Below are positions 4,387 to 29,460 of a stretch of 64,000 bases of DNA, one piece after another. The notes beneath the pieces were generated by a model. That model ran no database searches. It was not told the DNA's origin and was given only the letters and a program-made list of their open reading frames with translations. A program made the translations under genes and the position numbers. Source of the DNA: Jiella endophytica (GTDB lineage: Bacteria > Pseudomonadota > Alphaproteobacteria > Rhizobiales > Rhizobiaceae); the NCBI RefSeq assembly GCF_004519335.1, contig NZ_SOZD01000002.1, forward strand, positions 124,001 through 188,000, read 5' to 3'. The first letter of the stretch is position 1. Each line of letters starts with the position of its first letter.

Positions 4387-5091
4387 ATGGATCTTTCGGA
4401 TGGCGGCAGCAGCGGGCGGCGAAACATGCGGAAAAACGGCAGGACGCGCGGAGCCAAAGCCAGCCCGGGCAAAACCGGCCGCAGCGCTGCTGCCGGCAGA
4501 AGCAAATCACCGGGCGCCGACGGACAGGCCGCCACGGCCGCCTTTCTCGCGGCGGTCTCGCGCGGTGATTTCACTGCCGCCGCCGAGGCGCTGGACATCC
4601 TCGTCGTTGTCGAACCGGACAACGCCAAGCTCCATTACAACCACGCGCTCGCGCTGCGCCTTTCGGGCCGGGTGAAGGACGCCCTCGCCGCGGCGCGCCG
4701 GGCCCGTAGCCTCGACACGGCGAATGCCAAGGCGCTGTTCGAGATCGCCGCGAGCGCCCTCGAAGCCGGCGAGCCTGCCGCCTCGCTGGAGGCCGGCAGC
4801 GCCTATCTCGCCGACCATCCCGGCGATGCCGACGCGGCGCTGAATGCCGCCCGTGCCGCGCTGCTCGTCGACCGGCCGGACGCCGCCCTCGCGCTGCTCG
4901 AAAGCGTTGCCGCAGCTGACGCCACCGACGCCCATCGCCTCTGCCGCGGCGAGACGCTGCGCGATCTCGGTCGATTCGAGGAAGCGGAGAAGGCCTGGGC
5001 GCAAGCGGCACCGACACTTGCCGGACAGATCCTGTCGCTGCGCTCGAAGGGGCCGCGGGGGCGCATGGCGCTCAATCCTTCGCGCCCCTGA
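4387..5091 (+). CDS. TPR-repeat protein, function unknown
   Basis: A 234-residue protein. The first 50 residues or so are basic and rich in Gly, Ser, Arg and Lys, probably disordered. From about residue 55 it is alanine-rich, with helix pairs that read as tetratricopeptide repeats (for example the segments ending KLHYNHALALRLSGRVKDAL and HRLCRGETLRDLGRFEEAE). TPRs are protein-protein interaction scaffolds. The ATG at 4387 has GGAAGA six bases upstream; a second ATG lies at 4426. It is divergent from dppDF, and its 3' end overlaps the next, convergent gene by 20 bases. No signal peptide is seen. No specific function can be given. Confidence 0.7.
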   Translation: MDLSDGGSSGRRNMRKNGRTRGAKASPGKTGRSAAAGRSKSPGADGQAATAAFLAAVSRGDFTAAAEALDILVVVEPDNAKLHYNHALALRLSGRVKDALAAARRARSLDTANAKALFEIAASALEAGEPAASLEAGSAYLADHPGDADAALNAARAALLVDRPDAALALLESVAAADATDAHRLCRGETLRDLGRFEEAEKAWAQAAPTLAGQILSLRSKGPRGRMALNPSRP

Positions 5092-5767
5092 ACCGCTTGC
5101 GATAGACGCCGGGATCGGCATCGAGCGCGTCCTGCAGGTCGAGGCTCGCCGAAAGCTCCGCCTCGTCCATCTCGCGGCAGGTGAGTGTCAGTGGCTCCCG
5201 TCTCACGAGAACGGCCTGCGCCACCGGCGTCCCGGCAGGGACGACGCCGCTGAAGGACGGGTCGGTCCAGATGGCTGGGAAATGCACAAAGCCGTCCGGA
5301 AAGGCGTCGACGAGGCCGGTCAGGGTGCGGAACGGCAGGTCGAGCCGGTTGTGTGGGTGGGAAAACAGCATCGACCATCCCTCCGGCATGTCGATCGCCC
5401 AGGGATTGGTGAACTTGACGGCGAAGCGGCCCGGATCGGCACCGGGAAAGCCGGTCAGCTGTTCCGGCAGATGCACCCCGACCGGAGACCGGGTGAGCCG
5501 CGCCAGCGGATGGGCGGGCAGCCCGCTGTCCCATTCGAAGACGCCGTCCTCGACGCGAAGATCGGCGATCAGCGGAAACAGCACGCCGGCGCTCATCGCA
5601 TCGACGAAAGGCGGGCACTGCTTCACCGTGCGCACCTCGCCGCCAAGGAGCGGGGCGACGGCGCTGCGCGGCATCGCCTTCAGCCAGTCCGGCAGGTTGG
5701 CTGCGGCGATGCGAGGTTCGGGCATCCTGCCCTTCCAGCCGGGAAGGCAGCGGAACTGAAGCTTCAT
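5072..5767 (-). CDS. Conserved hypothetical protein (possibly DUF6065)
   Basis: A 231-residue protein without signal peptide or membrane segments. It contains aromatic- and proline-rich stretches such as WSMLFSHPHNRLDLPFR and FPAIWTDPSFSG, which I associate only loosely with an uncharacterised family (DUF6065). The overall composition suggests a compact beta-rich soluble protein. It starts at ATG 5767 and overlaps the TPR gene tail-to-tail. The next gene in the same direction upstream is separated by convergence with nothing, so it may be monocistronic. No catalytic motif is recognisable, and no function is proposed. Confidence 0.6.
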   Translation of the reverse strand: MKLQFRCLPGWKGRMPEPRIAAANLPDWLKAMPRSAVAPLLGGEVRTVKQCPPFVDAMSAGVLFPLIADLRVEDGVFEWDSGLPAHPLARLTRSPVGVHLPEQLTGFPGADPGRFAVKFTNPWAIDMPEGWSMLFSHPHNRLDLPFRTLTGLVDAFPDGFVHFPAIWTDPSFSGVVPAGTPVAQAVLVRREPLTLTCREMDEAELSASLDLQDALDADPGVYRKRFRGAKD

Positions 5768-5840
5768 GGTATCGATCGTGGCGAATTCGCGCCGGCCAGA
5801 CAAGCACCGAGCGGGTCGGATTGCGGCGGTACAGGCGAGG

Positions 5841-6713
5841 TCAGGCGGCGGTGCGCCCCCGCCGCTCGGCCCTGATCCGGCCACTCGCCCAGACCAGCGA
5901 CGCGGCGATGGTGACGGCGATGAAGATGACGCCGATGGCGTTGATCATCGGCGACAGGCCGAAGCGCATTCGGCTGGCGATCTCGGTGACCAGCGTATAG
6001 TCCGGCCCGATCGAAAAGAAGGTCGTCGGAAAGTTCTCGATCGACTGCAGGAAGGCGAGCACCGAGGCCGTGCCGATGGTCGGCGCGAGGAAGGGCAGCG
6101 TCACCCGCCGGAAGGTGAAGAACGGCGTCGCCCCGAGGTCGGCCGCCGCCTCGTCGAGGCTGCGGTCCTGGCGGGCGAGGCGCGCCATGAACAGGAGCAG
6201 GCAGTAGGAGGCGATGAAGGAGGCCTGCGCCATCATCGCCGTGAACAGCCCGGCATCGACGCCGAAGGCGTCGCGCCAGAAGATCATCGAGGTGCAGCCG
6301 AGCACGATCCCGGGGATCATGATCGGCGCGACGAGGACCGTGTAGAGGATGCCGTTCGCCCGGCTCTCCAGCCGGGTGAGCAGCAGCGCGCCGGCGAGCC
6401 CGAGCGGGATGGCGATGACGATCACCCCGGCTGCGACCAGCAGCGAGTTCATCAGCCCGGTCATCATCCGGGCGTCGTGGAAGATCGCGGCGAACCATTT
6501 CAGCGTGAAACCCTGCCAGATGGTGATCGACGGCGAGGGATAGGCGTTGAAGGCGGCCGCGACCATGATGACGATCGGTGCGAACAGGACGACGAAGAAG
6601 ATGCCGAGATAGACCTTGATCAGCGCCTCGCCGAGACCGCCGGAATAGCTGCCGGCAGCCGCTCTCGTGGTCGCGGTGTCGAGGGCTGCCGGCTGGCCGA
6701 GGGTCGCGCTCAT
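5841..6713 (-). CDS. ABC transporter permease, PotC-like (second permease)
   Basis: A 290-residue inner-membrane permease with about six transmembrane segments. The EAA loop that contacts the ATPase reads EAAADLGATPFFTFRRVTLP near residue 185. Its sequence type is that of PotC, the second permease of spermidine/putrescine-type importers, a class that also transports 2-aminoethylphosphonate, iron and other solutes. Its ATG overlaps the stop of the first permease by four bases. It is the last gene of the operon of solute-binding protein, acyltransferase, ATPase and two permeases. Because the operon promoter carries a Pho-box-like repeat, a phosphorus compound is a better guess for the substrate than a polyamine. 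Confidence 0.88.
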   Translation of the reverse strand: MSATLGQPAALDTATTRAAAGSYSGGLGEALIKVYLGIFFVVLFAPIVIMVAAAFNAYPSPSITIWQGFTLKWFAAIFHDARMMTGLMNSLLVAAGVIVIAIPLGLAGALLLTRLESRANGILYTVLVAPIMIPGIVLGCTSMIFWRDAFGVDAGLFTAMMAQASFIASYCLLLFMARLARQDRSLDEAAADLGATPFFTFRRVTLPFLAPTIGTASVLAFLQSIENFPTTFFSIGPDYTLVTEIASRMRFGLSPMINAIGVIFIAVTIAASLVWASGRIRAERRGRTAA

Positions 6714-7966
6714 TTGGCGATCTCCCGAATGGACACGCGGAACAGCGACAGCACCATCAGGATGAAGACGATGCAGCTCGCGAGCAGCATCAGCGAATAG
6801 GCCGAGCCCTGGTTCCAGTTGGCGCTCTCGAAGAAACGGCGATAGATCACCTGGCTGAACCAGTCCGGATGGAGGCCTCGGCCGATCAGCTCCGGCACGG
6901 TGATCACCCCGGCCGAAAGCATGAAGACGAGGATCGCGCCCATGGCGATGCCGGGCTTGGCGTGCGGCAGCACCACCCGGTAGTGCACCCTGAAGACCGA
7001 GGCGCCGAGGTCGCGCGCCGCCTCGACCTGGCTGCGGTCGAGGGTCCCGAGTGCATTCATCAGCGGGAACATCATGAACAGCACGAAGGTATAGGCCGAG
7101 ACGAGGAAGACGGCGTTGTTCGAGGCGATCCACTGGGGCGGATCACTGCCGACGAGCCCCAGCACCTGCAGGGCGGAGTTGAGAACGCCCTCGCGGGCGA
7201 GGATCATCACCCAGGCATAGACGCGCAAGAGCTCGTTGATGGAATAGGGGACGACGAGGAGCAGCAGGATGGCCCCGGCGCCGAGCGCGCCCTTCATGGT
7301 CGAGGCAACATAGGCGACCGGATAGCAGACCACGAAGGAGATGAGCGTCACCAAAGCGGCGTAGAAGATCGTCTTGACGAAGATCGTCAGATGCAGCGGC
7401 GAGATTGTCGAATAGTTCTTCAGCGAATAGCGCGGCGCATTGGCGCGCGCCTCGATCAACCGCGCCTGGGTCTGCTTCAGCTCGGTCATCTCGGCTTCCG
7501 CCGCGGCGCGCCTGGCCTCGAGGTCGGCGATTTCGCTGGCGACCGTCTGAGGCGTCTTCTCTGCCGCCGAAGTCCCGCCGAAGGAGGGCAGCAGCGGCGA
7601 TGTGCCGGAAGGCTCTTTCGTCTCCGCATTCGGCCGGTTGTCGGATGAGGGAACGCTCATGCCGGGAATGAGGAAACCGCCGCCGGAGCTCGCTCCGTCG
7701 TCCTTCGCGCCGGCACCCTCCGCCTCGAGGGCTGCCTGTTCTTTCTCATGCGCCTTCAGATCGAAGTCGATCGTCGCGATGTCGCGCGACAGCCGGTTGA
7801 GCGCCGTATTGGTCTTCGTCAGGTCGTCGCTGCGATCGACATAAACCAGCGAACGCTCGGCCATGGTGGAGAGCGGCGCGGCGATCATCCCGCCCACCCA
7901 CAGGACGACGAGCGCGAGGATGAGCGTCGCCAGCGGCCAGCCATAGGTGCGGTAGAGCGCTGCCAT
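6710..7966 (-). CDS. ABC transporter permease, PotB-like, with large periplasmic insertion
   Basis: A 418-residue permease, roughly 130 residues longer than PotB-like proteins usually are. One N-terminal membrane helix is followed by about 150 hydrophilic residues. These hold two heptad-like helices (around residues 50-75 and 140-165) separated by a Gly/Ser/Pro-rich linker. The normal permease core then begins, with the EAA loop EAARDLGASVFRVHYRVVLP. The insertion falls between the first two membrane helices, where the chain should be periplasmic. It overlaps the downstream permease by four bases and follows the ATPase gene by three. The extra domain may contact the solute-binding protein or the cell wall; this is inference. 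Confidence 0.85.
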   Translation of the reverse strand: MAALYRTYGWPLATLILALVVLWVGGMIAAPLSTMAERSLVYVDRSDDLTKTNTALNRLSRDIATIDFDLKAHEKEQAALEAEGAGAKDDGASSGGGFLIPGMSVPSSDNRPNAETKEPSGTSPLLPSFGGTSAAEKTPQTVASEIADLEARRAAAEAEMTELKQTQARLIEARANAPRYSLKNYSTISPLHLTIFVKTIFYAALVTLISFVVCYPVAYVASTMKGALGAGAILLLLVVPYSINELLRVYAWVMILAREGVLNSALQVLGLVGSDPPQWIASNNAVFLVSAYTFVLFMMFPLMNALGTLDRSQVEAARDLGASVFRVHYRVVLPHAKPGIAMGAILVFMLSAGVITVPELIGRGLHPDWFSQVIYRRFFESANWNQGSAYSLMLLASCIVFILMVLSLFRVSIREIAK

Positions 7967-7969
7967 GGC

Positions 7970-9127
7970 TCAGGCCCCCATCGGGGCGAGCCCGGCCTCG
8001 GCGACCGCGGCCTCGGCGGCCGGCATGCCGGCCGCGCCGTTCTCCGGCGTGCCGCCGGCGGCGGGCATGACCACCGCGTCATCGGGCATGAAGCCGATCA
8101 CCGCGTCACCGCCGGTCGGATGCTGGCGGCCGTCATTGGCGAGATGGAGGACGATCCGCCGGCCGGTGGCGTCGCGGGTGACGAGATTGAGATAGGGCCC
8201 TTCGAGCTCGCGGCCCTCGACCCTGGTGCTCAGCCGGTTGCCGTTGAGGGTGGTGGCATCGACGAGACCTGTCCGTTCGGGCCGGACCATCAGCACCGCG
8301 TGCTCGCCGACGGAGAGCTCGCGCGTCGCCCTGCCGGTGAAGGTGCCGCCCGGGCCGGCGATCTTGGCAAAGCCGTTCTCGATGCCGGTGACCTTGCCCG
8401 AAAAGACGTTCTGTTCGCCGACGAAGCCGGCGACGAAGGGCGTTGCCGGCGCGTCATAGACCTCGGTCGGAGTACCGACCTGCTCGATCCGCCCCCTGTT
8501 CATCACCGAGATGCGATCCGACATGGTCAGCGCCTCGCCCTGATCGTGGGTGATGTAGATGAAGGTGACGCCGGTGCGCTTCTGCAGGGCGCGCAGTTCG
8601 GTGCGCATGTGCTGGCGAAGCTTCAGGTCGAGAGCCGAGAGCGGCTCGTCGAGGCAGAGCACCGCCGGCTCCACGGCGAGCGCCCTTGCCACCGCGACGC
8701 GCTGACGCTGGCCGCCGGAAAGCTGGTCCGGCCGCTTGTCGGCATGGGCTTCGAGCGCCACCAGCGCCAGCAGTTCCTCGGCCTTCCGGGAGCGCTCGCG
8801 CTTCGACATGCCCCGCGCCTCGAGGCCGAAGGCGACGTTCTCGCGCACGCTCATGCGCGGAAACAGCGCCAGCGACTGGAAGATCATCGCCGTCGGGCGA
8901 CGATTGGCCGGCAGGTGGTTCACCGGCTCGCCGCCGATCAGCACCTGTCCGCCGCTCGGGCGCTGGAAACCGGAAAGGATCCTCAGAAGCGTGGTCTTGC
9001 CGCAGCCGGACGGGCCGAGGATCGAATGGAACTCGCCGGCGGGGATGGAGAGATCCGTCGGAGAGACGGCGGTGAAGCCGTCGAACACCATGGTGACGCC
9101 GGAAAGCTCGACGCTCTTCCCATCCAT
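7970..9127 (-). CDS. ABC transporter ATP-binding protein, PotA-like
   Basis: A 385-residue ATPase with Walker A GPSGCGKT near residue 40, a Q-loop, signature LSGGQRQR, Walker B VLCLDEPLSALD and the H-loop HDQGEA. A C-terminal TOBE/OB-like regulatory domain follows (from about residue 240), as in PotA and related carbohydrate- or amine-type importers. It energises import by the two permeases encoded just downstream. The last 35 residues are alanine- and glycine-rich and look disordered. The gene sits between the acyltransferase gene (80 bases upstream) and the PotB-like permease (3 bases downstream). Confidence 0.9.
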   Translation of the reverse strand: MDGKSVELSGVTMVFDGFTAVSPTDLSIPAGEFHSILGPSGCGKTTLLRILSGFQRPSGGQVLIGGEPVNHLPANRRPTAMIFQSLALFPRMSVRENVAFGLEARGMSKRERSRKAEELLALVALEAHADKRPDQLSGGQRQRVAVARALAVEPAVLCLDEPLSALDLKLRQHMRTELRALQKRTGVTFIYITHDQGEALTMSDRISVMNRGRIEQVGTPTEVYDAPATPFVAGFVGEQNVFSGKVTGIENGFAKIAGPGGTFTGRATRELSVGEHAVLMVRPERTGLVDATTLNGNRLSTRVEGRELEGPYLNLVTRDATGRRIVLHLANDGRQHPTGGDAVIGFMPDDAVVMPAAGGTPENGAAGMPAAEAAVAEAGLAPMGA

Positions 9128-9207: not shown

Positions 9208-10146
9208 TCAGATCGCCGGCACGGCCTCGCTCTCGCCAGCCTCCTCCTCGAACATGCCGGCAAAGAAGTCCGGCTCGTCGGGAGCGCCGGCAGTGCCGAG
9301 CGAAAACACCTGCCAGCGCAGCCATTCAGTCAGCGCCACGGCATCAGTGAAGCCGGCGATGACCGCGGGATCGATCGGCCGGCCCACCGTCATGGCGATC
9401 CGCCCGTCGATCATCCGCGCCGCCTCGTGGAATAGCAGGGCATAGCGAAGCGATTGCGACAGATGGCTCGCAACCTGGAAGAGGCGCGAATTCTGGCCGG
9501 GAATGTGCACCGGCAGGACCGTCGCGCCGGAACGCATGATCAGCCGGGCCGACAGCGGCCCCCAGGTCAGCTCGACGGCACGGCGGGCGAGCGGATGCGG
9601 CGTCGTCATCACCGCACCGGCCGGGAAGACCATCAGGCAACCGCCGCCCTTGAGATGATTCAGCGCCTCGGCCCGCGCCTTGATGTTGGCGCGCTCGGCC
9701 TCGCGGGTGCCGGAAAAGTCGATGGCGAAGAGCTTTTCGGCGAGCTCGGGGATCCGGGCGAGTGCCGAATGGGCGATGATTTTGACGTCGCCGCGCATGC
9801 GCCCGAGCAGGCAGCCGAGCGCGATCCCGTCCATTGCCCCGAAGGGATGGTTGGAAACGACCGCCAAGGGCCCGACCCGCGGGATCTGCGAGGTGCCGCG
9901 GGCGGCGAGGCGGATGTTCATCCGCGCGATCGCCTCGGCGAAGAAGTCGCCCCGGCCCGCATCGCCCAGAAACTCGTGATAGAGCCTTTCGAGCTTGCGC
10001 CGTCCGGTCGCCGCCTCGAGACCGAGGCACAGGCCACGCATCAGCCGGTGATCGATCGTCGCCGCGTAGGACAACCGAACCTCGGGGCGGAACGTTGCTC
10101 GCGTCGAGCCGGCGGCAAGATCGCCGATCGCAGTATGGTCGTCCAA
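9208..10146 (-). CDS. Phospholipid/glycerol-phosphate acyltransferase (PlsC-like)
   Basis: A 312-residue protein with the glycerolipid acyltransferase HX4D motif (NHPFGAMDG, about residues 108-116) and a substrate-binding FPAG motif about 65 residues later. Family members move acyl groups onto lysophospholipids, glycerol phosphate or ornithine lipids at the inner membrane. Only a weak membrane segment is visible. Placed between the solute-binding protein and ATPase genes of an importer, it may acylate an imported phosphodiester or lysolipid, or take part in lipid remodelling under phosphate limitation. Both ideas are inference from context. It starts at ATG 10146 and is in the same transcriptional direction as the transporter genes. 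Confidence 0.75.
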   Translation of the reverse strand: MDDHTAIGDLAAGSTRATFRPEVRLSYAATIDHRLMRGLCLGLEAATGRRKLERLYHEFLGDAGRGDFFAEAIARMNIRLAARGTSQIPRVGPLAVVSNHPFGAMDGIALGCLLGRMRGDVKIIAHSALARIPELAEKLFAIDFSGTREAERANIKARAEALNHLKGGGCLMVFPAGAVMTTPHPLARRAVELTWGPLSARLIMRSGATVLPVHIPGQNSRLFQVASHLSQSLRYALLFHEAARMIDGRIAMTVGRPIDPAVIAGFTDAVALTEWLRWQVFSLGTAGAPDEPDFFAGMFEEEAGESEAVPAI

Positions 10147-10270: not shown

Positions 10271-11419
10271 TCAGGACGCGTTGGTGATCCGGTCGACATA
10301 TTCCTGCTGGCCGGACGCGAAGAACGGCGTATCCGGCTGCCACCACCAGAGATTCGCGAGGTTGTCCTTGTTGTAGACTTCCTGGAACTGGCGGGCATAA
10401 ACCTCGCCGGCGTGCTGCGCCGCGCCGTCGGCGCAGGAGTTGTAGCCGGTGTTGGCGCTCATCATGCCGGCCATTTCCGGGTCCAGCATGGCGTTGATGA
10501 AGGCATAGGCCTGATCGAGATTCTCGGCGCCCGACGGGATGGCCATGGAGTCCATCCAGGTCATGCCGCCTTCCTTGGGCATGCGATATTTCAGGTCCGG
10601 CTTGTCGCGGTTGAGCAGAAGGCCGGTGGAGTCCCAGGTCTGGCCGGCGACGCAGCCGGACTGCTGGAAGGCGGCGAGCGCCTCCGTCGCGTTGTTCCAG
10701 AAGGCGCCGAAATTCTCCTTGTGGTCGACGATATAGGCGGCGACCTTGTCGAAGATCCGCCGCATGTCCTCTTCGCTCTTGTAGACGTCGAGCATGCGGT
10801 TCGACTGGATCTCGCCCTTGGCGTCGAGATAGAGGCCGGTGCCGATCAGCACCGACTTCTGCCGGAAGGCGGCCTTGCCCTTGGCCTTCGGGTCCCAGAG
10901 CATGCCGTAGGAGACGTCGGCGTCGTCGACACCGTCGAAGACCGACGCGTCGAAGGTCACCGCCTCGGTGCCCCAGTTGAAGGGGATGGCGACGCGCTTG
11001 CCGTTCTGCACCGCGCCGAGCTGGATCGAGTCGCGATACATCGACGAGATGACGTTGCCGACCTTGGCCTTTTCTTCGTCGATCGGCTGCAGGAGGAAGG
11101 TGTCGCCGTCCTGGTAGTTGGCGACGTTGGTGATCGACGGGAAGATGACGTCGAAGCCCTTGCCGCCGGAAGCCTTGAGCTTCTGGGTGGCCTCGTCGTT
11201 GGAGCCGTAGGTCGACAGGTTCAGCTTGATGCCGGTGTCCTTCTGGAACTTGTCGATCATGTTCTGCTGAACATAGTCGCCCCAGACGAAGACGTTGACG
11301 ACGCCGGAGCTCTGGCCGAAGCCCGGGCGGGTGAGGATGGCCGGCGCGGCGAGGACGGTGGCGGTAGCGGCGCCAGCCTTCAGCATCGAGCGGCGAGTGA
11401 TCGAGGTCGCGAGGGTCAT
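10271..11419 (-). CDS. ABC transporter solute-binding protein, PotD-like, Tat-exported
   Basis: A 382-residue periplasmic binding protein. The N-terminus (residues 1-35) has a twin-arginine signal, TRRSMLKAG, followed by an alanine-rich hydrophobic stretch and a likely cleavage near GFGQ. The mature part has the PotD/extracellular solute-binding family 1 fold signature, with a start like VVNVFVWGDYVQQNMIDKF. It delivers the ligand to the permease pair encoded downstream. It is the first gene of the operon, and the region upstream has a leftward Pho-box-like repeat. PotD-like proteins bind polyamines but also aminoethylphosphonate and iron complexes, so the ligand is open. Confidence 0.88.
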   Translation of the reverse strand: MTLATSITRRSMLKAGAATATVLAAPAILTRPGFGQSSGVVNVFVWGDYVQQNMIDKFQKDTGIKLNLSTYGSNDEATQKLKASGGKGFDVIFPSITNVANYQDGDTFLLQPIDEEKAKVGNVISSMYRDSIQLGAVQNGKRVAIPFNWGTEAVTFDASVFDGVDDADVSYGMLWDPKAKGKAAFRQKSVLIGTGLYLDAKGEIQSNRMLDVYKSEEDMRRIFDKVAAYIVDHKENFGAFWNNATEALAAFQQSGCVAGQTWDSTGLLLNRDKPDLKYRMPKEGGMTWMDSMAIPSGAENLDQAYAFINAMLDPEMAGMMSANTGYNSCADGAAQHAGEVYARQFQEVYNKDNLANLWWWQPDTPFFASGQQEYVDRITNAS

Positions 11420-11492
11420 GAAGAGGGTCCCATCCGGTGCGGGGAGAATTTGACGGCGCCTTTTAGACCTCCGGCATGACGTTTCGTTATCG

Positions 11493-11514
11493 GCTCGATG
11501 ACAGAGTGGTGACG
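11493..11514 (-). promoter_or_regulatory. Putative Pho box directed at the PotD-like gene
   Basis: On the minus strand two adjacent 11-base units are seen: CGTCACCACTC then TGTCATCGAGC. They match the PhoB-box half-site pattern (TGTCAT/C followed by four loosely conserved bases, period 11). The orientation fits transcription of the solute-binding-protein gene starting at 11419, and a GATAAC hexamer follows as a weak -10 candidate. PhoB binding is inferred from the pattern only. Confidence 0.5.
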
Positions 11515-11537
11515 GCCACCGCCACCCTTTGCGCGCG

Positions 11538-11559
11538 TCGTCATCGGGGCGTCATCGAA
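11538..11559 (+). promoter_or_regulatory. Putative Pho box directed at the PHP phosphoesterase gene
   Basis: Two tandem 11-base units, TCGTCATCGGG and GCGTCATCGAA, fit the PhoB-box pattern and point towards the PHP gene at 11607. The second unit is identical to one in the repeat upstream of phnC (19692-19702). It lies about 25 bases from the oppositely oriented box for the transporter operon. Confidence 0.55.
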
Positions 11560-11606
11560 GCCGCGGAAGGATCGCGCGACGATGATCCCACCCGGAGCCG
11601 AACACG

Positions 11607-12539
11607 ATGGACGGACGCGAAGCGTTCACAGCCCCAGGACGATTCTGGCGCGGCAATATCCACACCCATTCAGACCGCTCGGACGGCGCGCTGCCCCCGG
11701 GCGAAGTCTGCGGCCACTACCGGGCCATGGGCTATGATTTCCTCTGCCTGTCGGACCACTTCCTGCCCGCCTACGACTTCCCGATCACCGACACCAACGC
11801 CTTCCGGGGCGACGACTTCACGACGATCCTCGGCGCCGAGATCCATGCGCCGAAGAACAGCCAGGGCGAGATCTGGCACGTGCTCGCCTGCGGCCTGCCG
11901 GCAGACTTCGACCCGCCCTTCCCCGACGAGCAGATGGAATCGCTGGCAGCCCGCGCCCGTGACGCCGGCGCCTTCGTCGGCATCGCCCATCCGCAATGGT
12001 CGTCGCTGACGATCGAGGACGGCCGGGCGCTCGCCGGCAGCGCCGACGCGGTGGAGATCTGGAACACCGGCTGCGCGCTGGAGACGGCCCGCGGCGACGG
12101 CACGGCGCTTTTCGACCAGCTCCTGAACGAAGGCCACCGGCACCTCACCGGCTATGCCACCGACGACGCGCATCTGAAGATCCCCGATTCCGGCGGCGGC
12201 TGGATGATGGTGAAGTCGGAGAGCAACAAGCCGGCCGCGCTCCTCGAAGCGATGAAGGCCGGCCGCTATTATTCCAGCCAGGGACCGGCGATCAAATCGA
12301 TCGACCAAGACGGCGAGAGCCTCCGCGTCCACTGCTCGGAAGCACGGACGATCACCATCGTCGGCCGCGGCAGCCGGGCCGAAACCGCCTTCTCCGAAGC
12401 TGGCTCGCTGACCCGGGCCGAACTCTCGCTGAAGCGCTTTGCTGGCGACTGGTGCCGCCTGGTCATCGCCGACGGCGACGGCAGGCTCGCCTGGTCCAAC
12501 CCGATCTTCCCGGCCGGATCGTCTGCTGCCGGAGACTGA
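11607..12539 (+). CDS. PHP-domain phosphoesterase (candidate cyclic-phosphate hydrolase for the C-P lyase pathway)
   Basis: A 310-residue protein of the polymerase-and-histidinol-phosphatase superfamily, metal-dependent phosphoesterases. The full ligand set is visible: H19 and H21 (HTH), D26, H51 (SDH), E78, H91, H128 (AHP) and D177-H179 (DDAH). It has no signal peptide. It is divergent from the PotABCD-like importer, convergent with phnF eight bases away, and preceded by a Pho-box-like repeat. From memory, a PHP enzyme (Eggerthella PhnPP) can open the ribosyl 1,2-cyclic phosphate made by C-P lyase, replacing PhnP. No PhnP gene is seen in this window, so that role is proposed here as inference. 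Nucleotide or phosphodiester hydrolysis is the alternative. Confidence 0.85.
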   Translation: MDGREAFTAPGRFWRGNIHTHSDRSDGALPPGEVCGHYRAMGYDFLCLSDHFLPAYDFPITDTNAFRGDDFTTILGAEIHAPKNSQGEIWHVLACGLPADFDPPFPDEQMESLAARARDAGAFVGIAHPQWSSLTIEDGRALAGSADAVEIWNTGCALETARGDGTALFDQLLNEGHRHLTGYATDDAHLKIPDSGGGWMMVKSESNKPAALLEAMKAGRYYSSQGPAIKSIDQDGESLRVHCSEARTITIVGRGSRAETAFSEAGSLTRAELSLKRFAGDWCRLVIADGDGRLAWSNPIFPAGSSAAGD

Positions 12540-12547
12540 CTGACGCT

Positions 12548-13291
12548 TCAGATTCCAGCCTGATCGGCTCCATGGTAGAAGACCAGTTCGATGCGGCTGC
12601 CGAGGAAACGCGAGCGGGCAAACTGCAGCGGCTCGCTTTCCCTCGTGACGGTAAGGCTGGTGGTGACGATCAGCGGCGCGGCCAGCGGACAGTGCAGCCG
12701 CTCGGCATCGGCCGGCCCGGCGGCGATCGCCGAGACCCGCGTCCAGAGCCGGCGGTGGTCGGCGATGCCGAGAAGCGCCAGCGCTCGCGTGATCGATCCC
12801 GCCTCGGCATAGGCCTCGACGATACCCGGCATCCGCGCCTCCGCGAACCACAGGGTCGATAGGATCAGCGGCGCGCCATCGGCGACCCGCAGCAGTTCCA
12901 GCCTGATCAGCGGCGCCCCCGGGCGCGCGTCGAAATGGCTGGCGAGTTCCACCGATGCTAATTCGCGCCCGGCGGAAATCAGCGCCCCGCCCGGCTCGCG
13001 TGCGGTCGCGCCGATATTTTCGGAGAACCGGCTCTGCGAGCCCACCGGATAGGTGATCCGGCTCGGCCGCGGCGTGACGAATGTGCCCTTGCCGCGGGCG
13101 GCGGTCAAAAGGCCTTCCTCCCCAAGCGCCGCGATCGCCCGCCGCACGGTGTGACGGTTGACGGCGAAGCGCTCGGCAAGCTTCGCCTCGCTCGGCAGGA
13201 GGTCGGCGATCCGACCCTCGGCGATGTCGAGCCTCAGGCTGTCGGCGATCTGCCGCCAGCGAGCAATGCCAGCGCTGTCTCGGGTCGTCAT
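12548..13291 (-). CDS. phnF: PhnF, GntR/HutC-family regulator of phosphonate genes
   Basis: A 247-residue transcription factor. An N-terminal winged helix-turn-helix (about residues 10-75, with LPSEAKLAERFAVNRHTVRR and GKGTFV) is typical of GntR proteins. It is followed by a UTRA ligand-binding domain ending in FLGSRIELVFYHG. PhnF represses phosphonate utilisation genes until phosphonate or phosphate-starvation signals appear. It is divergent from phnG, and a 20-base palindrome between them (13415-13434) is the likely operator. I chose ATG 13291 because the longer frame (to 13369) has no family support upstream; the length then agrees with known PhnF proteins. Confidence 0.9.
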   Translation of the reverse strand: MTTRDSAGIARWRQIADSLRLDIAEGRIADLLPSEAKLAERFAVNRHTVRRAIAALGEEGLLTAARGKGTFVTPRPSRITYPVGSQSRFSENIGATAREPGGALISAGRELASVELASHFDARPGAPLIRLELLRVADGAPLILSTLWFAEARMPGIVEAYAEAGSITRALALLGIADHRRLWTRVSAIAAGPADAERLHCPLAAPLIVTTSLTVTRESEPLQFARSRFLGSRIELVFYHGADQAGI

Positions 13292-13367
13292 GTCTCGCAC
13301 CCATCCGTCGATTTGCGGCACGCCTGCCGGCGCAGCACTCGCGAGAAACACACGAACTCGCCGCGAC

Positions 13368-13385
13368 ACGTCATAGCTTCGTCAC
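13368..13385 (+). promoter_or_regulatory. Putative Pho box of the phnG operon
   Basis: ACGTCAT, four bases, then TCGTCAC gives two half-sites at 11-base spacing, close to the PhoB consensus (CTGTCAT N4 CTGTCAC) and oriented towards phnG. About ten bases downstream, GCTATA (13395-13400) could serve as the -10. The PhnF palindrome lies further downstream, which suits activation by PhoB with repression by PhnF. Confidence 0.55.
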
Positions 13386-13414
13386 GATCGCCATGCTATA
13401 CGGGCTTACAACAA

Positions 13415-13434
13415 TTGTCTATATAATTAGACAA
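13415..13434. promoter_or_regulatory. Palindromic operator candidate for PhnF
   Basis: TTGTCTATATAATTAGACAA has perfect 7-base arms (TTGTCTA/TAGACAA) around a 6-base TATAAT spacer. It lies 24 bases before the phnG start, in the phnF-phnG divergent region. GntR/HutC-type dimers bind such palindromes. The central TATAAT may itself act as a -10 element. Binding is inferred. Confidence 0.6.
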
Positions 13435-13458
13435 CTCAAGTTACGGCGGATCTGAACG

Positions 13459-13932
13459 ATGAGCGAGCCGGCGAGCCCCGAACCCGACACCCGTGTCGTC
13501 CAACGCCAGCGCGCCGTCTCGGCCTTCGCGCAGGCCGACGGGCAATTCCTGGCCGATGCCTGGCGGCGGCTGGGCGGCGATCGCGCGGTCACGACGCTGC
13601 GCGGCCCGGAGGTCGGCCTCGTGATGGTACGCGGCCGGGCCGGGGGTGGCGGCGCGCCGTTCAATCTCGGCGAGGCGAGCGCCACAAGGGCAAGTGTGCG
13701 GCTCGCCGAAGAGACCGTAGGCCACGCGATGGTGCTCGGCCGCGACAGGGAGCGAGCCCGACTCGCTGCGGCCTTCGACGCACTCTGGCAGGTCGAGAGC
13801 GAGAGGGTGGCGGTCGAGACCGAGGTCGTCGCCGTCGTCGAGGCGGCGCTTGCTGCAGAAGACCACAAGCGTCGCTCCGAGACCGAGGCGACGAAGGTCG
13901 ACTTCTTCACCATGATGCGCGGAGAGGACTGA
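13459..13932 (+). CDS. phnG: PhnG, C-P lyase core subunit
   Basis: A 157-residue protein of normal PhnG length. PhnG joins PhnH, PhnI and PhnJ in the cytosolic C-P lyase core complex; with PhnI it attaches the phosphonate to ribose of ATP, giving ribose 1-phosphonate 5-triphosphate. The RVVQRQRAVSAFAQAD start and the segment GLVMVRGRAGGGGAPFNLGE are characteristic. The ATG at 13459 follows a promoter region with a Pho box and a PhnF palindrome. The stop overlaps the phnH start (TGATG), marking a coupled operon. Confidence 0.93.
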   Translation: MSEPASPEPDTRVVQRQRAVSAFAQADGQFLADAWRRLGGDRAVTTLRGPEVGLVMVRGRAGGGGAPFNLGEASATRASVRLAEETVGHAMVLGRDRERARLAAAFDALWQVESERVAVETEVVAVVEAALAAEDHKRRSETEATKVDFFTMMRGED

Positions 13933-14537
13933 TGGCGGGCGAGACAATCGACCTATCCCGCAGAGCCGTCGAAGGCGGCTTCGCCGACCCGGTGTTCGAT
14001 GCCCAGGCGGTGTTTGCCGCGATCCTGCGGGCGATGGCCCGCCCCGGCACCGTCGTCGATCTCGGCCATCGCGCGGTCCCGCCAGCGCCACTTTCCCCGG
14101 CGCAAGGGGCCATTCTCTCGGCTCTTGCGGATCAGGACACGCCGGTCTTCGTCGAGGGCGTCGGCGAGGCGCTTGCCGCCTGGCTCGGCTTCCAGACCGG
14201 CGCCCGGCTGGCACACGCCGCCGAGGCCCGGTTCGCCGTGGTTTCAATGTTCGGAACTGTCTCGCTGGAACGCTTCGCCCTCGGCACTCTCGCCTTTCCG
14301 GACCGGTCGGCGACGCTGCTCCTCGAGGTCGCCTCGCTAAAGGACGGCCCGACAATGCGTCTTTCAGGACCCGGCATCTCCGGCAGCACCGTCATGCAGG
14401 TGTCGGGGCTCGGCGAGGCTTTCCTCGAGGCAAGGCGGGCCAACCGGGCGCTCTTGCCCTGCGGCCTGGACCTCATCCTGACGTCGGGAACGCTGGCGCT
14501 CTGCCTGCCCCGCTCCACGGTCATCGAGGAGGCTTAG
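13932..14537 (+). CDS. phnH: PhnH, C-P lyase core subunit
   Basis: A 201-residue protein with PhnH features: an early FADPVFDAQAVFAAILRAMA segment containing the conserved substrate-fold start ARPGT, and a hydrophobic centre. PhnH is a PLP-transferase-like fold without enzyme activity that completes the core complex and is needed for C-P bond cleavage. The start codon overlaps the phnG stop, and phnI begins one base after its own stop, so expression is tightly coupled. Nothing unusual is seen in length or composition. Confidence 0.92.
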   Translation: MAGETIDLSRRAVEGGFADPVFDAQAVFAAILRAMARPGTVVDLGHRAVPPAPLSPAQGAILSALADQDTPVFVEGVGEALAAWLGFQTGARLAHAAEARFAVVSMFGTVSLERFALGTLAFPDRSATLLLEVASLKDGPTMRLSGPGISGSTVMQVSGLGEAFLEARRANRALLPCGLDLILTSGTLALCLPRSTVIEEA

Positions 14538-18301: not shown

Positions 18302-19030
18302 ATGACGACCGCAACCCCAGACGCGCGGCTGATCCTGAAGGACGTCGCCAAGAGTTTTACCAATCACTTGCGCGGCGGCGTCCACCTTCCCGTCGTTGCC
18401 GGCGTGTCGTTTCGCATCGATGCCGGCGAGGTCGTCGTCCTTGGCGGCCCGTCAGGCGTCGGCAAGTCCTCGATCCTCCGGATGATCGTCGGCAACTACG
18501 CGGCAGAACGCGGGCAGATCCTGATGCGCAGTTCGGCGGATGCGGCCTTCGTGGACGTCGCCGCCGCCAGCCCGCGCGAGGTCATCGCGCTCCGCCGCAA
18601 TGTCGTCGGCTATGTCAGCCAGTTCCTCAGGGCAATCCCGCGGGTCTCGGCCCTCGACGTCGTCGCCGAGCCGCTGCTCGCCCGCGGCATCGGGCAGGCC
18701 GACGCGAGGCGGCAGGCCGGCGAGCTGCTCGAACGGCTGAACCTTCCTTCGGCCCTCTACGACCTGCCGCCCGCCACCTTCTCCGGCGGCGAGAAACAGC
18801 GGGTCAACATCGCCCGCGGCTTCCTCACCGACCACCCGATCCTGCTCCTCGACGAGCCGACCGCCTCCCTCGACAACGCCAATCGCGACGTCGTCTGCGG
18901 GCTGATCGCGGACAAGCGCAAGGCGGGCGTCGCCATCCTCGGCATCTTTCACGACGAGGAGGTGCGCTGCCGGGTCGCGACGCGCATCGTCGACGTCTCG
19001 GGCTTTTCGGCGCGCAGGGCCGCGGCGTGA
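18302..19030 (+). CDS. phnL: PhnL, ABC-type ATPase of the phosphonate operon
   Basis: A 242-residue ABC-fold ATPase with Walker [10 protein letters not shown] near residue 51, signature [14 protein letters not shown] and Walker [12 protein letters not shown]. It resembles LolD/MacB-type ATPases, as PhnL does, and works with PhnK and the C-P lyase core rather than in membrane transport. It starts five bases after phnK, and its stop overlaps the start of the acetyltransferase gene. Length and motifs are normal. Confidence 0.93.
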
Positions 19031-19644
19031 TGGCGAAACTGTCCGAAACGCCGCTGATCCATCCGAGCGCCGAGGTCGATGCCTCGCATCTCGGCCGCTA
19101 CACCGAGATCGCAGAACGATGCCGCATCTCCGAAACCCGGCTCGGCGACTATTCCTACGTCATGCAGGACTGCGGCGTCTGGGCGGCCGAGATCGGCAAA
19201 TTCGTCAATATCGCTGCGGCCGTGCGCATCAATGCCACCAACCATCCGACCTGGCGGGCGACGCTGCACCACTTCACCTATCGCGCCGGCGACTATTTCG
19301 ACGGCGAGGCGAATGAGGCGGAATTCTTCGACTGGCGACGCGCCCATGCCGTGACGATCGGCCATGATGTCTGGATCGGCCACGGCGCGACGATCCTGCC
19401 CGGCGTCACCGTCGGCAACGGCGCCGTCGTCGGCGCCGGGGCGGTGGTCTCGAAGGACGTCGAGCCCTATACGATCGTCGGCGGCGTTCCCGCGAAGACG
19501 ATCCGCCGGCGATTTTCCGAGGAGGTCGCCGCCGGCATGGAGCGGCTGGCCTGGTGGGATTGGCCCCATGCCGCGCTGCACGCCGCGCTCGATGATTTCC
19601 GCCACCTCGACGCTGCGGCATTCATCGCCAAACATAGATCGTAA
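19030..19644 (+). CDS. Hexapeptide-repeat acyltransferase of phosphonate operons (TIGR03308 type)
   Basis: A 204-residue left-handed beta-helix acetyltransferase: hexapeptide repeats are visible both early ([16 protein letters not shown]) and late ([20 protein letters not shown], then [12 protein letters not shown]). Members of this group are found almost only with C-P lyase genes; they probably acetylate an aminophosphonate or intermediate, a job done by PhnO elsewhere. The start is ATG 19030 overlapping the phnL stop, with a GTG three bases before. It ends the first phn unit; a Pho-box array and phnC follow. Confidence 0.88.
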
Positions 19645-19669: not shown

Positions 19670-19713
19670 TCGTCATCGAACCATCGTGAAAGCGTCATCG
19701 AAGTCTCATGCTG
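19670..19713 (+). promoter_or_regulatory. Tandem Pho-box array upstream of phnC
   Basis: Four consecutive 11-base units read TCGTCATCGAA, CCATCGTGAAA, GCGTCATCGAA and GTCTCATGCTG. The first and third nearly coincide, and all align with the PhoB half-site (TGTCAT plus four). Two adjacent boxes are therefore likely. TCTAAA at 19718-19723 is a possible -10. This would drive phnC-phnD-phnE-phnM-phnN separately from the phnG unit. Confidence 0.65.
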
Positions 19714-24405: not shown

Positions 24406-24584
24406 CGGTCGCTTCGCCACTTCGCGACAGGTCTTTCGCCGCTGCACCGAAGTTCCAACCACACGCTCAAATTGCCGACCCCAAAGAAAGCGTGCTTTAC
24501 TATTCATGTGAACGGTTCGCCGAAATTGGAGCGGGGCTTGAAATCAGTGCTTTGTACGTACATTGTGAGTACGCGACAGGCTCC

Positions 24585-24860
24585 GTGAAGTTCGGCTGGG
24601 ACGAAGGCAAACGGCGCTGGGTCCTGAGCGATCGCAAGATCGACTTGGCGGACATGACAGCACTTTTCGACGGGCGCCCACGAGTCTCCTATTCGTCGCC
24701 ACGAAACGGGGAGGATCGCATCGTCTCTGTGGGCGAGATCAACGGGCGTCTGTTTGCCGTCATCTGGATGTGGAGGGAGGAGACCCTCTGGTTGATAACT
24801 GCCAGACGAGCATGGAAACGCGAAGAACGACAGTATCTAGCAATGATCGAGAAGCAGTAG
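24585..24860 (+). CDS. brnT: BrnT-type ribonuclease toxin (second copy)
   Basis: A 91-residue protein of normal BrnT size with the family start VKFGWDEGKRRWVL and a closing LWLITARRAWKREERQY segment that corresponds to the RKAxxRE end motif. I chose GTG 24585 because the longer frame (to 24492) has no family sequence. A translation start for the antitoxin lies two bases after its stop. The pair follows phnN by about 180 bases in the same direction. The copy is divergent from the brnT inside the phn operon, so the two look like independent acquisitions. Confidence 0.75.
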   Translation: MKFGWDEGKRRWVLSDRKIDLADMTALFDGRPRVSYSSPRNGEDRIVSVGEINGRLFAVIWMWREETLWLITARRAWKREERQYLAMIEKQ

Positions 24861-25175: not shown

Positions 25176-25321
25176 CAGAGATTTGATCGATTCCAATCTT
25201 TGCGGTGGCGGTTGACAGGGAAAGTTGACCGGCCTAGCCAAGATTTGTCGTATCCGCCGTGCCCATTCCCGCACCATCGATCACTGGACGCAAGATCGCG
25301 CCCGGGAGGAGATCCGTCGTC

Positions 25322-26605
25322 ATGAAAATTCTCGCCCGCTCCCTCACCTTCGCTCTCGCCGCCGCGACGACGCTGGCCGCCGGCCACGCCGCATGGGCCG
25401 ATGCCCCCTCCGCCGACGCCGTCTTGAAGAACTACGCGGACATCGCGCTTGCCGGCTATTCCGACGCGCTGGAGAAGGCCAAGGCGCTCGACGAGGCGAC
25501 GGACAAGCTGATCGCCGATCCGAGCGAGGCGACGCTGAAGGCGGCCCGCGAGGCCTGGCGCAACTCCCGCCCCTTCTACCAGCAGACCGAGGCCTTCCGC
25601 TTCGGCAATCCGATCGTCGACGACTGGGAGGGCCGGGTGAATGCCTGGCCGCTCGACGAAGGGCTGATCGACTATGTCGACCAGAGCTACGGCACCGAGT
25701 CCGACGAGAATTCGCTCTATACCGCCAATGTCATCGCCAACCAGACGATTACCGTCAATGGCGAGAGCGTCGACGTTTCGAAGATCACGCCTGAGCTCCT
25801 GCAGGACAAGCTGCAGGAAGCCGGCGGCATCGAGGCGAATGTCGCCACCGGCTACCACGCCATCGAATTCCTGCTCTGGGGCCAGGACCTGCACGGCACC
25901 GATGCCGGCGCCGGCGAGCGACCCTATACCGATTATGCCAAGGGCGATGCCTGCACCGGCGGCCATTGCGACCGGCGCGGCGAATATCTCGACGCGGCGA
26001 CCGATCTCCTCGTCTCCGACCTCGAGGAGATGGTCGGCAACTGGCAGGAAGACGGCGCCGCCCGCAAGGAGCTGCTCGCCGATCCGGCCAAGGGGCTGTC
26101 TGCCATCCTCACCGGCATGGGCTCGCTCTCCTATGGCGAGCTTGCCGGCGAGCGCATGAAGCTCGGCCTGCTGCTGCACGATCCCGAGGAGGAGCATGAC
26201 TGCTTCTCCGACAACACCCACATCTCGCATCTCAACGACGTCCTCGGCATCCGCAACGTCTATACCGGCCGTTACGAGCGAGCCGACGGCTCGATGGTCG
26301 AAGGTCCGGCGATCGCCGAACTGGTCGCCGCCAAGGCGCCGGACATCGACAAGGAGATCCGCGCCGACCTTGACGACAGCGTCGGCAAGTTCGAGGCGAT
26401 CGCCAAGGCGGCCGTGGGCGGCGAAGCCTACGACCAGCAGATCGGTGAAGGCAACGACGCCGGCAATGCACGGGTCCAGGCAGGCATCGACGCGCTGATC
26501 ACCCAGACCCGGGCGATCGAGCGGGCCGTCGCCGCCCTCGATCTCGGCGGCGTGACCATCGAAGGTTCCGATTCGCTGGACAATGCCGGAGCGGTCTTCC
26601 AATAG
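25322..26605 (+). CDS. Imelysin-family (peptidase M75-like) periplasmic iron-associated protein
   Basis: A 427-residue exported protein: Sec signal peptide at residues 1-27 (cleavage after AWA-D), then an all-helical imelysin domain with the GxHxxE motif at 177-182 (GYHAIE). Imelysin proteins (IrpA, EfeO-like) bind metal in the periplasm and are part of iron acquisition; the peptidase label is historical. A GGAGGAGA ribosome-binding site precedes ATG 25322. It heads an operon with a di-heme oxidoreductase, a second imelysin and a DUF1513 protein, and has an Irr-like box upstream. Confidence 0.9.
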   Translation: MKILARSLTFALAAATTLAAGHAAWADAPSADAVLKNYADIALAGYSDALEKAKALDEATDKLIADPSEATLKAAREAWRNSRPFYQQTEAFRFGNPIVDDWEGRVNAWPLDEGLIDYVDQSYGTESDENSLYTANVIANQTITVNGESVDVSKITPELLQDKLQEAGGIEANVATGYHAIEFLLWGQDLHGTDAGAGERPYTDYAKGDACTGGHCDRRGEYLDAATDLLVSDLEEMVGNWQEDGAARKELLADPAKGLSAILTGMGSLSYGELAGERMKLGLLLHDPEEEHDCFSDNTHISHLNDVLGIRNVYTGRYERADGSMVEGPAIAELVAAKAPDIDKEIRADLDDSVGKFEAIAKAAVGGEAYDQQIGEGNDAGNARVQAGIDALITQTRAIERAVAALDLGGVTIEGSDSLDNAGAVFQ

Positions 26606-26660
26606 GACCGGCCGTCCGAGCCGGCGCCCGTCCGGGCAGCGGGTTCCGGCGCGAAGTTAC

Positions 26661-26684
26661 GAAGGGCCGCTCAGGCGGCCCTTC
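26661..26684 (+). terminator. Hairpin between imelysin and di-heme oxidoreductase genes
   Basis: GAAGGGCCGC, loop TCAG, GCGGCCCTTC: a perfect 10-base stem about 55 bases after the imelysin stop and 30 before the next start. There is no T run, so it is more likely a partial terminator or mRNA-stabilising hairpin that reduces downstream expression. Confidence 0.5.
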
Positions 26685-26714
26685 GGCCGTTGAAATGGAT
26701 AGGGACGCGAAAAG

Positions 26715-28244
26715 ATGCGTTTCGCCACGCGAGTGACGCTCCTGGCCGGCATGATCCTCCTGCCCGCCGCCATTCCGCTTTCCGAAAGTCTCGGCCTCGA
26801 CAGGCCCGTCCGGCAGGATCTTTCCAGAAAGGACCTCGCCCGCGTCCGCGCCGTCGCCAAACCGACGACGGATTTCTCGCAGCCCGAGAAATTCGAGCTG
26901 ATGCAGGCCGGCGCGACGACCTCCACCAAGATGGTCAACCGCGACTCCTTCAGCCAGGTTTCGGCGAACCAGACCTTCGAGGGCGAGGATCGCTTCAAGC
27001 TCGGCAATGCGCTGTTCCGCAAGCTGTGGGTCTCCTCGCCCTCCTCCACCGAAGCCTCCGACGGCCTCGGGCCGCTGTTCAATTCGCGCTCCTGCCAGTC
27101 CTGCCATCTGAAGGACGGCCGCGGCCATCCGCCGGGGCCGAACGAGCCGGCGGTGTCGATGTTTCTGCGCCTGTCGGTGCCGCCGAAGACCGCCGAAGAC
27201 CGCGCCAAACTCGCCTCCCATGAATTCACCCGCATCCCAGAGCCGACCTATGGCGGCCAGCTGCAGAACTTCGCGGTCGGCGGCCTGAAGCCGGAAGGCC
27301 GCATGGTCGTCACCTATCGCGAGGAGCCGGTGACGCTTGGCGACGGCACGGTCGTCAATCTGCGTCATCCGACCTATTCGGTCGCAGATCTCGGCTACGG
27401 CCCGATGGAGGACGACGTGATGCTCTCGCCGCGGGTGGCGCCGCCGATGATCGGCCTCGGCCTCGTCGAGGCGATCGAACCCGCCGACATCCTTTCGAAT
27501 GCCGATCCGAACGACGCCGACGGGGACGGCATTTCGGGCAAGGCCTCGATGGCCCGCGATCCGGAGACCGGCGAACTCGTCCTCGGCCGCTTCGGCTGGA
27601 AGGCAACGGTCCCGTCGATCAAGGTCCAGAGCGCAGAGGCGTTTTCCGGCGACATCGGCATCTCGACACCGCTCGTGACCGACGCCTTCGGCGAATGCTC
27701 GATCGCCCAGACTGTCTGCCGCGACGCGCCCTCCGGCGTTCAGGAACGGCTCGGCGACGTCGAGGCGCCGGATCCGATCCTTGACCTCGTCGCCTTCTAT
27801 TCCCGCAACCTCGCCGTCCCCGCCCGCCGCGATGTCGGCGACCCGGAGGTCCTGCGCGGCAAGAAGCTGTTCTATGACGCCGGCTGCACCAGCTGCCACA
27901 CGCCGAAATTCGTCACCTCGAAGAAGGCGGCGGACAAGGCCCAGCGCTTCCAGCTGATCTGGCCCTATTCGGACTTCCTGCTGCACGACATGGGCGAAGG
28001 CCTCTCCGATCACCGGCCGGTGGGCGACGCCTCCGGAAACGAATGGCGGACCCAGCCGCTATGGGGTATCGGGCTGACCAAGACCGTGAACGGCCATACG
28101 CTGTTCCTGCATGACGGCCGGGCGCGCAACCTCACCGAGGCGATCCTCTGGCATGGCGGCGAGGCCGCGGCCTCCCGCGACGCCTATGCGGCAATGGCGA
28201 AAGCCGACCGCGACGCGCTGCACGCATTTCTGGAGTCCCTATGA
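26715..28244 (+). CDS. Di-heme oxidoreductase (thiol oxidoreductase, DUF1111 family)
   Basis: A 509-residue exported protein with two CxxCH haem c sites (CQSCH at 127-131, CTSCH at 391-395) and an N-terminal signal segment (residues 1-20). This di-haem family is regularly encoded beside imelysin genes; it may oxidise or reduce metal or another periplasmic donor during iron uptake. It overlaps the next gene by four bases. Length is normal for the family. Its exact electron donor and acceptor cannot be told from sequence. Confidence 0.88.
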   Translation: MRFATRVTLLAGMILLPAAIPLSESLGLDRPVRQDLSRKDLARVRAVAKPTTDFSQPEKFELMQAGATTSTKMVNRDSFSQVSANQTFEGEDRFKLGNALFRKLWVSSPSSTEASDGLGPLFNSRSCQSCHLKDGRGHPPGPNEPAVSMFLRLSVPPKTAEDRAKLASHEFTRIPEPTYGGQLQNFAVGGLKPEGRMVVTYREEPVTLGDGTVVNLRHPTYSVADLGYGPMEDDVMLSPRVAPPMIGLGLVEAIEPADILSNADPNDADGDGISGKASMARDPETGELVLGRFGWKATVPSIKVQSAEAFSGDIGISTPLVTDAFGECSIAQTVCRDAPSGVQERLGDVEAPDPILDLVAFYSRNLAVPARRDVGDPEVLRGKKLFYDAGCTSCHTPKFVTSKKAADKAQRFQLIWPYSDFLLHDMGEGLSDHRPVGDASGNEWRTQPLWGIGLTKTVNGHTLFLHDGRARNLTEAILWHGGEAAASRDAYAAMAKADRDALHAFLESL

Positions 28245-29416: not shown

Positions 29417-29460
29417 CCCCGCATCACCCAAAGCATGAAATGACAGAGGGAGCAGCGACG

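Follow-up and report, generated by a model that had tools for sequence, protein, structure and literature searches.

A divergent pair of candidate Pho promoters separates a Pot-type ABC importer operon from the gene for a PHP-type metallohydrolase in Jiella endophytica. The branch of Pot-type importers to which this operon belongs probably serves phosphate starvation, the likeliest function being the uptake of organic phosphorus combined with hydrolysis by the PHP enzyme. Predicted Pho control of the importer is well supported by sequence and extends across the class. The features of the window, the whole stretch of 64,000 nucleotides that was analysed, are collected in Table 1.

Table 1. Genes and Pho-box-like sites around the divergent promoter region (positions in the window)
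Feature	Position	Strand	Remarks
TPR-type gene, convergent with X	4555-5079	+	Matched stretch only, converted from L269
Protein X, 231 aa	5072-5767	-	Confident model, weak dUTPase-fold similarity
Permease 2 (PotC-like)	5841-6713	-	
Permease 1 (PotB-like)	6710-7966	-	Conserved part preceded by some 130 additional residues; residues 180-411 align with PotB model 48-274
ABC ATPase	7970-9127	-	Best NCBIfam model PhnT2, 349.8 bits, below cut-off 457.7
Acyltransferase, between SBP and ATPase	9208-10146	-	Start codon uncertain
Solute-binding protein (SBP), PotD/PotF fold, SBP_bac_8	10271-11419	-	Family match; model nearest PotD/PotF
Intergenic stretch	11420-11606		Between leftward importer operon and rightward PHP gene
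Pho-box-like array, four 11-bp units, toward importer operon/SBP	11476-11514	-	Three of four units are YGTCAY
Pho-box-like pair of units toward PHP gene	11539-11555	+	
PHP-type metallohydrolase, CehA/McbA family	11607-12539	+	NF038032, 115.9 bits, above cut-off 80
phnF regulator	12548-13369	-	TIGR02325, 244.7 bits, cut-off 156.8; start uncertain
Pho-box-like pair before phnG	13369-13385	+	Strict genome-wide pattern
phnG, first gene of C-P lyase operon	13459-13932	+	Followed by phnH, I, J, K, L
Pho-box-like array before phnC	19671-19709	+	Contains the second GCGTCATCGAA

Paired Pho-box-like arrays and their conservation

The Pho box consists of TGTCA-like direct repeats with an 11-bp period, and repeats of this kind upstream of both divergent genes constitute predicted PhoB sites. 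The array facing the SBP gene has the units CGTCAC (11514-11509), TGTCAT (11503-11498), CGATAA (11492-11487) and CGTCAT (11481-11476) on the minus strand, all in 11-bp register, and the pair facing the PHP gene has CGTCAT at 11539-11544 and again at 11550-11555 on the plus strand. Divergent repeats of the TGTCAT/CGTCAT type with an 11-base period, directed at the importer operon and the PHP gene, had been proposed in a sequence-only reading, and they are confirmed here as four units on one side and two on the other; the interval given for them, 11493-11559, is right as to the presence of the arrays and too short in extent, the two SBP-proximal units of the four falling outside it. The same reading had one half-site identical to a unit before phnC, which is borne out: GCGTCATCGAA stands at 11549-11559 and at 19692-19702, before phnC. 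These are its two matches in the window, against a mean of 0.13 in shuffled sequence, and two matches were reached in none of 100 shuffles. In the phnC array, units in the same 11-bp register stand at 19671, 19693 and 19704, and the unit at 19682 is a misfit.

In the 5.25-Mb genome the strict pattern YGTCAY-N5-YGTCAY has 21 matches at 20 places, compared with a single match of the reversed-pattern control. Three of the 20 places belong to this cluster (11498 on the minus strand; 11539 and 13369 on the plus strand, the latter before phnG), another precedes ugpB, a phosphate-starvation gene, and several of the remaining ones fall within genes.

When the intergenic region of the window was aligned with those of seven same-genus genomes, every unit of both arrays was found to be kept in all eight, the CGATAA unit included and the PHP-facing pair in the form YGTCAY-N5-CGTCAT, and the spacer between the arrays was variable. 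Both arrays are also recognisable in a ninth region, from genome G002, which stands outside the alignment. The array facing the SBP gene is followed downstream by a conserved plus-strand sequence, GCCTTNTAG, which may belong to the promoter. The whole block of permeases, ATPase, acyltransferase, SBP, PHP, phnF, phnG and onward is present in seven of nine same-genus genomes. In one of these seven, G001 (L037), phnI and permease 1 each match in two pieces (5096-6152 and 12784-14044), possibly as a result of frameshifts or assembly errors. G002 (L047, 8900-11415) retains the PHP gene, which adjoins phnM, the acyltransferase and the Pho-like boxes, together with fragments only of the SBP and ATPase. 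A further genome of the genus, G006, has PhnJ, and neither PHP, acyltransferase nor a close importer was found in it, which counts against the preferred reading.

The importer branch and its partner genes

The arrangement of a Pot-related SBP, ATPase and two permeases in one operon is that of PotABCD, and the likeness to PotABCD and PotFGHI extends to the families of these components, to their fold and to most of the pocket aromatics. The importer differs from those systems in that its PotA, PotB, PotC and PotD equivalog scores (339.1, 135.4, 128.9 and 92.1 bits) lie far under the cut-offs of 482, 348, 326 and 582, its acidic pocket is partly lost, one permease carries a long extra stretch, Pho-box-like sites precede the operon, and a protein of about 235 residues, protein X, accompanies it in 77 of the best 80 of 155 loci. 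The 2-aminoethylphosphonate importers PhnSTUV and AepXVW are a second point of comparison, the likeness being a possible uptake of phosphonate and the best, sub-threshold ATPase match to PhnT2. According to the paper on these systems, the SBPs AepX, AepS and PhnS belong to pfam13343 (PMC8316502), whereas SBP_bac_6 (pfam13343) is not the main match of the SBP studied here, which fits PF13416 best (84.1 bits) and PF13343 weakly (28.7 bits, just above the gathering score of 24.6). The abstract of that paper calls PhnSTUV/AepXVW-type systems phosphate-insensitive, and one passage describes the AepX of P. putida as PhoBR-dependent (PMC8316502).

A genome scan with nine orthologs confirmed 155 importer loci, of which the best 80 were analysed. 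These 80 come mostly from marine Alphaproteobacteria, for example Jiella, Stappia, Pseudovibrio, Roseovarius, Shimia and Thalassobaculum, and the importer looks like a separate, widespread and Pho-linked branch of the Pot family. One locus labelled Oceanobacillus (L251) carries this alphaproteobacterial-type cassette and is perhaps from a mislabelled or contaminated assembly. A plasmid collection searched for a named close relative returned 11 records, none above 39% identity, and no paper about this branch was found among the open-access papers searched, as judged by titles and abstract openings.

In 72 of the best 80 of 155 loci, protein X is encoded on the strand of the SBP gene, 3.5-6.5 kb beyond the start of that gene. 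X has many invariant residues, among them C7, H99, H137 and H162. Its structure model has a mean pLDDT of 94 and weak matches to the dUTPase fold (best E 1e-4, query TM 0.38). The window copy gave no Pfam match at E 0.1; DUF6065, considered as a family for X, appeared at E 0.02-0.07 in four of six X proteins scanned and not in the window copy, and was set aside. In an even sample of the class, X was present in 16 of 385 genomes and was adjacent to importer genes in 11 of the 16, the window's own included; the other five are more distant X proteins whose 1.5-kb flanks held no importer match. The TPR-type gene was matched in 66 of the best 80 of 155 loci with three repeat-protein queries at E 1e-6, a search that may include unrelated TPR proteins.

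The acyltransferase resembles the O-acyltransferase part of OlsF as well as GlsA, and scores below both cut-offs. Among the best 80 of 155 loci it is linked to the importer only in the seven of the Jiella group and has no match in the 73 others, so that it cannot explain the general role of the importer and was rejected as a necessary partner. Eleven loci with homologs in other genera were collected (L139-L149); in the two whose neighbours were annotated, L140 and L141, no clear lipid or phosphorus theme was found, the sole phosphorus-type neighbour being one phosphoesterase.

The pocket of the solute-binding protein

The SBP model (mean pLDDT 89) has PotD and PotF as its nearest PDB chains, and in the alignment to PotD the residues W46, D48, Y49, W262, W288, D290 and Y326 are kept. 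The acidic residues with which PotD grips amino groups are E36, D168, E171 and D257. The first and last of these have D48 and D290 as counterparts in the SBP; D168 is replaced by K188 and E171 by the hydrophobic L191, at positions where the alignment is of moderate certainty, so the full acidic set of a polyamine importer is not present. The triplet R186-Q187-K188 is invariant in all 35 family sequences. Basic residues near 186-188 also occur in other PotD-like SBPs of the relatives, a point against the preferred reading, and for this reason the triplet was rejected as proof of a phosphate pocket. As aligned, the pocket argues against the classical polyamine type and does not establish a phosphorus ligand.

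Pho-like sites and phosphorus genes across lineages

Sites in other genomes were scored by a simple consensus count rather than a trained PhoB matrix, in upstream windows that differ slightly between scans, and 79 of the best 80 of 155 loci were scanned, L202 being too short. Among the 72 non-Jiella loci of this set, 43 score at least 17 and 26 at least 18 in the 30-150 bases before the SBP gene; the corresponding values are 1.3% and 0.4% in shuffles, and one and none of 72 on the opposite strand. When each of 50 lineages is represented by a single locus, chosen from record titles among the best 80 of 155 loci, 32 reach at least 17 and 17 at least 18, and 12 remain below 16, compared with 2.3% and 0.7% in dinucleotide shuffles and none of 50 at either threshold on the opposite strand. 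Two comparisons count against the preferred reading: in 47 of the loci, a score of at least 17 is reached before 30 of 769 other genes, and the PotD-like loci of relatives that are more distant (L038-L040 left aside) reach it in four of 21 cases, so the signal before the SBP gene is strong and not exclusive. The PHP gene is preceded by a site scoring at least 18 in 10 of 19 importer-linked non-Jiella loci and in only two of 16 other PHP loci (L114-L129), the latter count again weighing against the preferred reading. The PHP scan also gave high scores on the opposite strand, 12 of 43 loci reaching at least 18 and eight of 43 reaching 20; these eight are attributed to the loci of the Jiella group, whose SBP array occupies that strand.

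Genes of phosphorus metabolism recur beside the importer. In 12 of the best 80 of 155 loci (Stappia and Pseudovibrio), phoR-like and pstS-like genes share the strand of the SBP gene and lie about 7-8 kb past its start, with the opposite-strand TPR-type gene between X and the phoR-like gene. The products in L193 score below the NCBIfam cut-offs (PhoR-like 327.3 against 334.2; PstS-like 148.4 against 206.6), which counts against the preferred reading. Genes of the phn type occur in 13 of the best 80 of 155, namely seven Jiella loci, four further clear cases (L199, L233, L235, L252) and two weak ones (L246, L261). Taken together, PHP, phn or phoR/pstS-like genes are found in 40 of the best 80 of 155 loci, and none was found within the DNA examined in the other 40. 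The claim of the sequence-only reading that importer and PHP gene belong to the Pho regulon is strongly supported, as a prediction, by the conservation within the genus, by the presence of such a site ahead of the importer across lineages and by the phn, phoR-like and pstS-like neighbours.

The PHP gene and its C-P lyase surroundings

The PHP protein resembles the CehA/McbA metallohydrolases in scoring above the NF038032 cut-off, and its context differs, being that of phosphonate use and phosphate starvation. It is encoded in 26 of the best 80 of 155 importer loci, 19 of them outside Jiella. The gene also stands beside phnF or phnM in three other genomes that lack an intact importer; it adjoins phnF without an importer in two other genera (L115 and L117), and in a third genus (L114) lies beside an SBP_bac_6 importer and a DUF1045 phosphonate-operon protein (8386-9105). 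PHP enzyme and importer thus need not share one substrate. PhnJ was counted by hand in 18 of 23 PHP-bearing genomes, compared with 60 of 101 overall; by the same hand count PHP is absent from 42 of the 60 PhnJ genomes, which counts against the preferred reading. The PhnP cut-off was exceeded in none of the 101 genomes, with or without PHP, and 98 gave weak matches, so this profile does not discriminate PHP as a replacement for PhnP.

Several other genes were noted in this part of the window. A hexapeptide-repeat acetyltransferase-like gene (19027-19644, plus strand) lies between phnL and phnC and was matched in most same-genus loci examined. A BrnT-type toxin gene (24492-24860, plus strand; PF04365, 60.1 bits) follows an AAA-type gene that may, by a weak match, be phnN. 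Genes for an imelysin, a di-haem oxidoreductase, a second imelysin and a DUF1513 protein stand in a row at 25259-30585 (plus strand) and look like an iron-related operon.

Proposed role and alternative explanations

When phosphate runs out, PhoR-activated PhoB would bind both arrays of 11-bp repeats, turning on the leftward SBP-(acyltransferase)-ATPase-permease-permease-X operon and the rightward PHP hydrolase gene beside the C-P lyase operon. The importer would then take up an organic phosphorus compound with a polar or amino group, and the PHP enzyme would hydrolyse an ester or amide of the imported compound or of a product of the pathway. The sequence-only reading suggested a phosphorus-containing substrate, for instance an aminophosphonate or a phosphodiester, which is plausible. 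The PotD acidic patch is missing in the alignment, but other PotD-like proteins share the basic residues that replace it. Proteins of the same annotation classes respond to phosphate elsewhere. In Phaeobacter sp. MED193, Table 1 of PMC10132767 lists PotA (MED193_11419), PotD (MED193_11424) and PHP (MED193_18169) as raised without phosphate. In the phoB mutant the first two are not raised, and the PHP protein is not detected. That table gives PotA and PotD the annotation of a spermidine/putrescine transporter. The MED193 proteins are likened to the present cassette by annotation only, as far as the table goes, which makes them a lead rather than a proof; the PHP locus tag lies far from the two Pot ones.

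Chance repeats, or repeats of another regulator, in a cluster that merely neighbours phn genes would account for the arrays if the CGTCA-type core, which is short, several of whose genome matches fall within genes and whose PhoB sites are predicted ones, had misled the analysis. The conservation of the arrays in the genus, the controls with shuffles and with the opposite strand, and the other lineages with phoR/pstS-like or phn neighbours make this extremely improbable. It is also very unlikely that the operon is an ordinary polyamine importer incidentally induced by phosphate starvation: the nearest solved structures and the kept aromatic and acidic residues would fit such a cargo, and they stand against the exchange of D168 and E171 (at the alignment certainty given above), the invariant R186-Q187-K188 and the low equivalog scores.

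An importer under Pho control may instead carry a phosphorus-free molecule, for instance an amino acid or betaine-like head group destined for the phosphorus-free membrane lipids that are made in starvation, with the Jiella acyltransferase taking part in that remodelling. The resemblance of the acyltransferase to OlsF and GlsA speaks for this, as do the Acetyltransf_5 domain, which we take to be that of OlsB and which is present in all 12 genomes searched, the retained D48 and D290 that together with R186-Q187-K188 would suit a zwitterion, and the persistence of acyltransferase, PHP and boxes in G002, where SBP and ATPase are mere fragments. The acyltransferase is unmatched in the 73 non-Jiella loci of the best 80 of 155, however, the neighbours in other lineages are phn, phoR-like and pstS-like genes, and G006 has the Acetyltransf_5 domain without an acyltransferase of this kind, so that the phosphorus-free cargo is judged unlikely. 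The preferred reading remains the uptake of organic phosphorus. Extended to the class, we tentatively see an unnamed phosphate-starvation cassette that consists of a Pot-type importer, one of whose permeases is enlarged, the barrel protein X, possibly a distant member of the dUTPase fold, and an accessory PHP enzyme; it might serve a pool of organic phosphorus in solution that lies outside the range of the known importers, perhaps an amino-organophosphorus ester.

Annotation routinely gives Pot-type importers the name of polyamine transporters. The importer described here keeps a Pho-type site in many marine bacteria, and so probably aids phosphorus scavenging or coping without phosphorus. The cassette offers a clear test case, with one SBP, one PHP enzyme and one protein X, and a sequence marker of phosphate stress. 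Should organic phosphorus prove to be what this branch imports in marine bacteria, some of the sea's organic-phosphorus uptake would be hidden under a wrong name.
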